Of a DNA stretch of 64,000 bases, positions 58,001 to 59,004 are shown piece after piece. The stretch covers positions 1 to 64,000 of the forward strand of contig JAPKMP010000017.1 of NCBI GenBank assembly GCA_026645935.1, given 5' to 3'. A program made the position numbers and the translations under genes. The notes under the pieces were generated by a model. The model was not told the origin of the DNA. It did no database searches and was given only the letters and a program-made list of their open reading frames with translations. Each line of letters starts with the position of its first letter. The stretch's first letter is position 1. This DNA is from Candidatus Villigracilaceae bacterium (lineage in GTDB: Bacteria; Chloroflexota; Anaerolineae; Anaerolineales; Villigracilaceae).

Positions 58001-58216
58001 GAGAGAGCCTCCGCATTTAACTTTACCCCAAAATAGACCGGCAAAACGATTCAAAAGTTCCCTCCTGTGGATGGGACTCTGCAAAAATCAATCACGGTAT
58101 ACTTGGCTGACCTTTTGGTGCAAGAGAAAAATGCCTGTATCCGCGCCGGGTGTGACCAAAGAATATCATCGCCTCACCCAGAGCAATTGCAGCCTTCCAT
58201 GTCTTTTGGAGGAACC

Positions 58217-58687
58217 ATGAAATTGAAAAGAATCATTGTAGCAATTTCCATCCTTGCCCTTGCCGCGCTCGCCTGCCAGACCCTTCTCCCAACGGCGGAG
58301 CCGGTTGCGGCTCCAACCCAACCTTCTCAATTCCAAAATAACAACGCGCCCCAAACCGAGGACGACGTTCCCCGGATCGGCGTCAAAGAGGCAAAAGCCG
58401 CCGTGGACTCAGGTCAAGCCATTCTGGTGGATGTGAGAGGCGCGGATATCTTTGCCGAGCAACATGCAGCCGGCGCGATGTCGATCCCATTGGATATTTT
58501 CGAGTACGACATTGCCAGCATATCGCTCGAAAAAGAGCAATGGATCATCACCTACTGCACCTGACCGAACGAACATACGAGCGCCCGTGCGGCGTTCCTT
58601 CTCCTGCACAACGGTTATGAAAAAGTGGAAGCCCTGCTCGGCGGACTCCAAGCCTGGATGGATGCCGGTTATCCCCTCGAACCTTAA
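58217..58687 (+). CDS. Rhodanese-domain lipoprotein with in-frame TGA (selenocysteine candidate or disrupted)
   Basis: Lipoprotein signal LALAALAC, a Gln/Pro linker and a rhodanese domain (ILVDVRGADIFAEQH, GAMSIPLDIFEYD). The frame reads ITYCT, then TGA at codon 116, then PNEHTSARAAFLLLHNGY and GGLQAWMDAGYP to TAA 58685. Rhodaneses of this type usually have YC-T/S-C-P, so TGA takes the place of the second Cys of a CxC active loop. A SECIS-like hairpin begins 2 nt after. Total 156 codons. It may be a selenoprotein; a nonsense mutation making a pseudogene is the alternative. The start has GGAGGA. The cupin gene follows 2 nt after the stop. Confidence 0.7.
58567..58597 (+). promoter_or_regulatory. 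SECIS-like hairpin after TGA
   Basis: Outer stem GAACG / CGTTC, inner stem TACG / CGTG, apical loop AGCGCC beginning 15 nt after the TGA. Bacterial SECIS elements have a hairpin a short way behind UGA with G among the first two loop bases, which this has. The match is weak evidence by eye. Confidence 0.4.
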
Positions 58688-58689
58688 CG

Positions 58690-59004
58690 ATGAAAAACGC
58701 GCCTCGAGTCACGCCCTGGCCTGATTCAACGCCTCCAACCCGCGCCGCGCTCTGGCAGTTGATGGTGGAAGAAGGTCTCGACCCATACGCCTGGTCGAAT
58801 GGACCATTCGATATCTATTCCGCTCACTCGCACAGTTTTGATAAAGTGATCTATGTCGTGCAGGGCAGCATCACCTTCGGCTTGCCCGAACTGAATCAGT
58901 CGCTGATATTGAAGGCAGGCGATAAATTGGATTTACCCGCCGGGGTTGTACATGACGCGCATGTCGGCGAGGAAGGCGTGGTCTGCTTGGAAGGGCATAA
59001 ATAA
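58690..59004 (+). CDS. Cupin-domain protein
   Basis: 104 residues, single cupin: HSHSFDKVIYVVQGSITFGLPE and DLPAGVVHDAHVGEEG supply the metal-binding His pattern. It starts 2 nt after the rhodanese gene's final stop, so they are translationally linked. Specific role unknown. Confidence 0.8.
   Translation: MKNAPRVTPWPDSTPPTRAALWQLMVEEGLDPYAWSNGPFDIYSAHSHSFDKVIYVVQGSITFGLPELNQSLILKAGDKLDLPAGVVHDAHVGEEGVVCLEGHK

Follow-up and report, generated by a model that had tools for sequence, protein, structure and literature searches.

Features of the locus

The window analysed here is a whole stretch of 64,000 nucleotides, positions 1 to 64,000 of the forward strand of contig JAPKMP010000017.1 (assembly GCA_026645935.1, Candidatus Villigracilaceae bacterium). 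It contains a gene for a small rhodanese whose frame is crossed by a TGA codon, followed closely by a cupin-like gene. The features are:

58208..58212, plus strand: Shine-Dalgarno-like GGAGG, 4 nt 5' of the ATG, read in the sequence
58217..58687, plus strand: single-domain rhodanese of 156 aa, predicted to contain selenocysteine (U116), with a lipoprotein-like N-terminus (Cys20) and a TAA stop
58556..58558, plus strand: TGC codon of Cys114, the catalytic-position Cys, aligned with the YC of 6mxv
58562..58564, plus strand: in-frame TGA, codon 116, read as selenocysteine (CxU) from homologue conservation and the Sec machinery
58579..58597, plus strand: candidate bacterial SECIS-like hairpin with a 7-bp stem and the loop CGUGC at 58586-58590, from fold, frozen codons and covariation
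58690..59004, plus strand: small cupin-like gene beginning 2 nt past the rhodanese stop; Cupin_2 at 23.5 bits, below Pfam's 27.2

Between the ATG at 58217 and the TAA at 58685-58687, the TGA at 58562-58564 is the sole interruption. Rhodanese sequence continues 3' of it in the rhodanese frame only, as PNEHTSARAAFLLLHNGYEKVEALLGGLQAWMDAGYPLEP and then the stop, in agreement with a preliminary description of this DNA that had noted the open frame; the ribosome site and cupin-like gene, which it had also described as intact, were found so in the sequence, and the stop is intact as well. The product passed the profile of the rhodanese superfamily (PF00581, 45.9 bits against a Pfam gathering cut-off of 22.2), and rhodanese-domain proteins were the top Foldseek matches of its predicted model, which has a mean pLDDT of 83.6 and block means of 95-98 from residue 51 onward. 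In an alignment with the solved rhodanese-like protein 6mxv, the YC of the latter matched the first Cys of the active-site loop YC-T-U-P, so that TGA codon 116 lies two residues past the catalytic-position Cys. This residue, Cys114, is invariant across a 67-row alignment of members.

The strict lipobox pattern is [LVI][ASTVI][GAS]C, and the window protein is non-canonical at -3. Among the lipoprotein-like relatives, 35 of 39 fitted a loose pattern and eight the strict one. The rhodanese part of the earlier designation as a rhodanese lipoprotein was upheld by profile and fold. Judging from its N-terminal sequence, the protein is probably a lipoprotein held outside the cytoplasmic membrane.

Conservation of the TGA codon

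Homologues were searched for in 101 genomes with the complete protein sequence, codon 116 being entered as C, a query without bias against Cys forms. The search yielded 70 homologous loci from 48 of the genomes. TGA occupies the YC-x-TGA codon in 69 of them, and the 70th (71.6 bits) ends at a contig edge before reaching it. Exactly one TGA is held by at least 69 matches in 47 genomes. Among the matches listed, every one of 86 bits or more carries TGA, those lacking it score at most 51.1 bits save the one at the contig edge, and no Cys orthologue was found. Since the TGA recurs at the identical codon in 69 of 70 loci, chance is excluded. The nearest homologue with the same TGA (L020) shares 96% protein identity. 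In addition, 14 of the 69 genes, two of them identical copies, terminate in TGA, so this codon also serves as a stop there.

Match score divided the 69 loci into groups of 39 and 30, and the split agreed with the N-terminus, which is lipoprotein-like by the loose pattern in 35 of the 39 and in one of the 30. Named homologue records belong to Anaerolineales, Anaerolineae or Chloroflexi bacteria and are mostly MAGs.

A wider set of 256 loci was assembled from these 70, 168 further loci, ten from a phylum search and eight of the own genome. It gave 189 distinct domains, namely 152 CxU, 10 UxU and 27 others (including three CxC, two CxxCU and one truncated), a count that takes in 20 loci chosen for the absence of TGA. 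In the class-level search, whose list, like that from the 101 genomes, covers the stronger matches, 60 listed matches were picked by hand beyond those made into loci, and the listed rows left out include some with TGA. A contig scan with two peptide patterns covered the best 80 of 199 relatives and is no gauge of the rarity of Cys forms. The distant relatives L226, L230 and L235 read YCACP, with Cys at the place of the TGA.

A hairpin downstream of the TGA

The preliminary description had placed a two-part hairpin with the loop AGCGCC behind the TGA. A hairpin was found there, beginning 14 nt past the TGA and inside the coding sequence, with GAGCGCC pairing with GGCGUUC around the loop CGUGC; AGCGCC (58580-58585) is thus part of the 5' arm. 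This one helix was examined. As a single sequence its fold is unremarkable, with a z-score of -0.56 and 53 of 200 shuffles folding at least equally well.

Comparison of genes was more informative. Codon entropy, computed over 67 unique genes, is 0 to 0.48 bit at codons 122-126. It is at least 1.19 bit at all but two of the 28 other codons scored; those two lie 5' of the TGA, at Thr115 (0 bit) and Thr112 (0.34 bit). Covariation was evaluated in 149 unique windows from 215 loci against 2000 shuffles, which ignore relatedness. Each of the five inner pairs is present in 147-149 of the 149 windows, whereas the two outer ones are present in 85 and 95. In the unslid register 921 of 1043 pairs form, compared with 310 to 535 in slid versions. 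All 2000 shuffles were beaten by the three pairs in which both partners are third codon positions, one of which is C-G in 132 windows, U-A in 11, U-G in three, A-U in one and unpaired in two. For the other four pairs, the observed value was reached by all shuffles in two cases, by 33 of 2000 in one and by 594 of 2000 for one outer pair; two inner pairs hardly vary and are therefore uninformative on covariation. A stem is also kept in L195, with a different Ser codon. Taken together, the comparative data, rather than the single-sequence fold, support the hairpin as a putative SECIS-like signal, one backed by covariation between synonymous codon positions.

The Thr115 codon itself (58559-58561), which stands just 5' of the TGA and outside the hairpin, is ACC in all 66 genes with Thr at this place.

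Selenocysteine machinery

The genome that holds the window (4.33 Mb, 70 contigs, 98.67% complete) was checked for Sec genes, as had been proposed, and all four were present over their family cut-offs: tRNA-Sec (66.7 bits), SelA (536.8 bits), SelB (358.3 bits) and SelD (361.9 bits). ARAGORN also reported a tRNA-SeC with the anticodon tca.

Across the 101 genomes, the own one included, tRNA-Sec exceeded the cut-off in 76. It did so in 38 of the 47 carriers of the TGA gene, always with at least 61.6 bits, and also in 38 of the 54 remaining genomes, which lack an intact TGA gene; in five of the latter 38 the score does not exceed 53 bits. Since tRNA-Sec is also common where an intact TGA gene is lacking, its co-occurrence with the gene is weak evidence. 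Nine of the 47 carriers gave no tRNA-Sec over the cut-off, even in a laxer search; SelB was over the cut-off in seven of these nine, and the two without it are genomes 71% and 78% complete.

The SelD gene of the own genome (L017, C30:11005-11934, minus strand) has an in-frame TGA of its own, read by eye in the context AGUASK. A possible hairpin 3' of this TGA was likewise seen by eye only.

Reading of the TGA

From a single sequence, a nonsense mutation in one strain, real or introduced by sequencing, would give a Cys-Cys rhodanese the same appearance as the gene described here. The preliminary description had listed a sequencing error, a TGA confined to this strain among Cys homologues and missing Sec genes as outcomes that would speak against selenocysteine. 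None of the three was observed: the Sec genes are there, the same TGA occurs in other genomes, and the 70 homologous loci have it at this codon, save the one that ends before it. The kept frame and residues past the TGA in 69 of 70 loci, together with frozen synonymous codons and covariation 3' of it, argue against a pseudogene or an error, and this explanation was rejected with practically no probability left to it. The frame would be open under any code in which TGA is a sense codon, so that insertion of another amino acid (Trp, codes 4 or 25) or plain read-through was also considered. Against it stand the 14 of 69 genes that end in TGA, the Cys of the distant YCACP relatives, and the conserved SECIS-like hairpin alongside SelA, SelB, SelD and tRNA-Sec. 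A reassigned code was rejected on the TGA stops and the hairpin, and any such reading is very improbable.

Decoding of TGA 116 as selenocysteine, which would make this a selenoprotein gene, is thus strongly supported by the comparison of sequences, and we assign it a probability of about 95%. UGA 116 would be decoded by tRNA-Sec and SelB under the direction of the hairpin 14 nt downstream in the coding sequence, and the product would be a rhodanese fold outside the cytoplasmic membrane with a CxU pair in its active-site loop. Usual annotation would end such genes at residue 115 or deem them broken, and in this way a whole family would be overlooked.

Relation to known rhodanese selenoproteins

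Rhodanese selenoproteins with CxU have been catalogued earlier, as COG0607 form 2 in PMC9312934. In PMC13188914, which cites Zhang and Gladyshev 2005, the CxU rhodanese is form 3 (NF041203, rhodanese_LYCAU); the other Sec rhodaneses there are forms 1, 2 and 4 (UxxS, UxxG) and form 5, TsoB (UxxxxU). As listed there, forms 1, 2, 4 and TsoB resemble the window protein in having Sec in a rhodanese-like protein and differ in the Sec motif, while NF041203 shares with it the rhodanese domain, CxU and Sec at +2 from the catalytic Cys, the window motif being YCTU.

Among NCBIfam models, NF041203 fits the window protein best, and each of the 67 members scanned is matched by it at E <= 1e-10. However, the window protein misses its cut-off (77.1 bits against 115), and the best E-value of the 67 members, 4e-25, compared with 8.6e-22 at 77.1 bits, corresponds to a score well below 115 bits when converted. 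No protein exceeded the cut-off in the 301 genomes of the phylum. Filing the window protein under NF041203 was rejected on these scores. The window rhodanese is nearest to this family yet, like the 67 members, falls short of the cut-off; on profile evidence it is a sister branch of the known CxU kind, and no description of this branch was found in the literature searched.

The single-domain thiosulfate sulfurtransferases GlpE and PspE are alike in profile and predicted fold. They are not known to have Cys or Sec at +2. The active-site loop of the window protein is about two residues longer than that of 6mxv in the alignment.

UxU variants

Ten relatives (L175 and L206-L214) have TGA both at the catalytic Cys and at +2 (YU-x-U), with the hairpin in place 3' of the second TGA. 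All ten genomes have tRNA-Sec over the cut-off, nine of them at 67 bits or more; in the tenth (G419) it scores 50.0 bits, no better than weaker second matches elsewhere. A quick tree of 188 short rows, gathered with CxU queries and with 75 forks open, showed six changes of the UxU label, one of them forced. A non-exhaustive literature search that included PMC13188914 and PMC12013277 returned no UxU rhodanese.

These forms could be explained if the bacteria possess a large family of extracytoplasmic rhodaneses, nearly all of them with Sec, where even the catalytic Cys was repeatedly replaced to give all-selenium UxU sites; we put this at somewhat short of even odds, which the weak tRNA-Sec of G419 lowers slightly. 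If it is true, a single hairpin serves both UGA codons, which are six bases apart, and catalysis by a UxU enzyme would rely on a diselenide in place of the cysteine persulfide.

Longer loops were seen in L219 (YCGRCUPP) and L221 (YCSDCUPP), where the TGA comes after a second Cys.

Gene neighbourhood

Neighbours were counted at 80 named loci, the best 80 of 199 relatives. A gene similar to the cupin-like one lies downstream of the rhodanese in 10 of the 80; in the window, the two genes are likely to share one transcript given their 2-nt spacing. Close to the rhodanese, 38 of the 80 loci have an M3-peptidase-like gene and 11 a VOC gene, and the ORF list of the window has no long upstream plus-strand ORF of the M3-peptidase-like kind. 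The window does share two genes on the minus strand further downstream, which recur in 22 and 23 of the 80 loci and which we take to encode acyl-CoA dehydrogenase and glutamate dehydrogenase. Near the anchored group, heavy-metal transport, ArsR-type and copper-chaperone genes were found at 6 to 8 of 80 loci each.

Beside the anchored form (L139-L142, L153 and similar), a second rhodanese lipoprotein-like gene follows in 13 of 80 loci. A small, Cys-rich, secreted-looking protein precedes the anchored form in nine.

Possible function

The favoured function is that of an extracytoplasmic Cys-Sec redox pair acting on disulfides or sulfane sulfur. As a tentative chemistry, rated below even odds, Cys114 would pick up sulfane sulfur or become oxidised, the selenol of Sec116 would resolve it with release of sulfide or the reduced product and formation of a Cys-Sec selenenylsulfide, and a putative extracytoplasmic thiol partner would reduce this bond again.

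Two other functions were weighed against the redox pair. Binding of a soft metal ion (Cu, Cd or Hg) by CxU, with no transfer of sulfur or electrons, would fit some loci of the anchored group, which adjoin genes for an HMA-domain transporter, cation efflux, an ArsR-type regulator and PCu(A)C (6 to 8 of 80 each); in the window's own group the neighbours are instead M3 peptidase, VOC or cupin genes, and the rhodanese Cys is kept in the loop, which makes metal binding unlikely. That this Cys is kept at the catalytic position in the CxU forms would equally suit an ordinary sulfurtransferase in which Sec merely tunes the Cys114 persulfide and no Cys-Sec bond forms. Such a role would leave the UxU forms, with no Cys at either position, better matched by a redox pair, and it is regarded as doubtful.

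CxC, CxU and UxU form a natural series on one small fold, in which the reason for the replacement of Cys by Sec becomes testable. A YCTU member (L177) is present in the cultured strain Levilinea saccharolytica KIBI-1, so the family is open to tests in culture.
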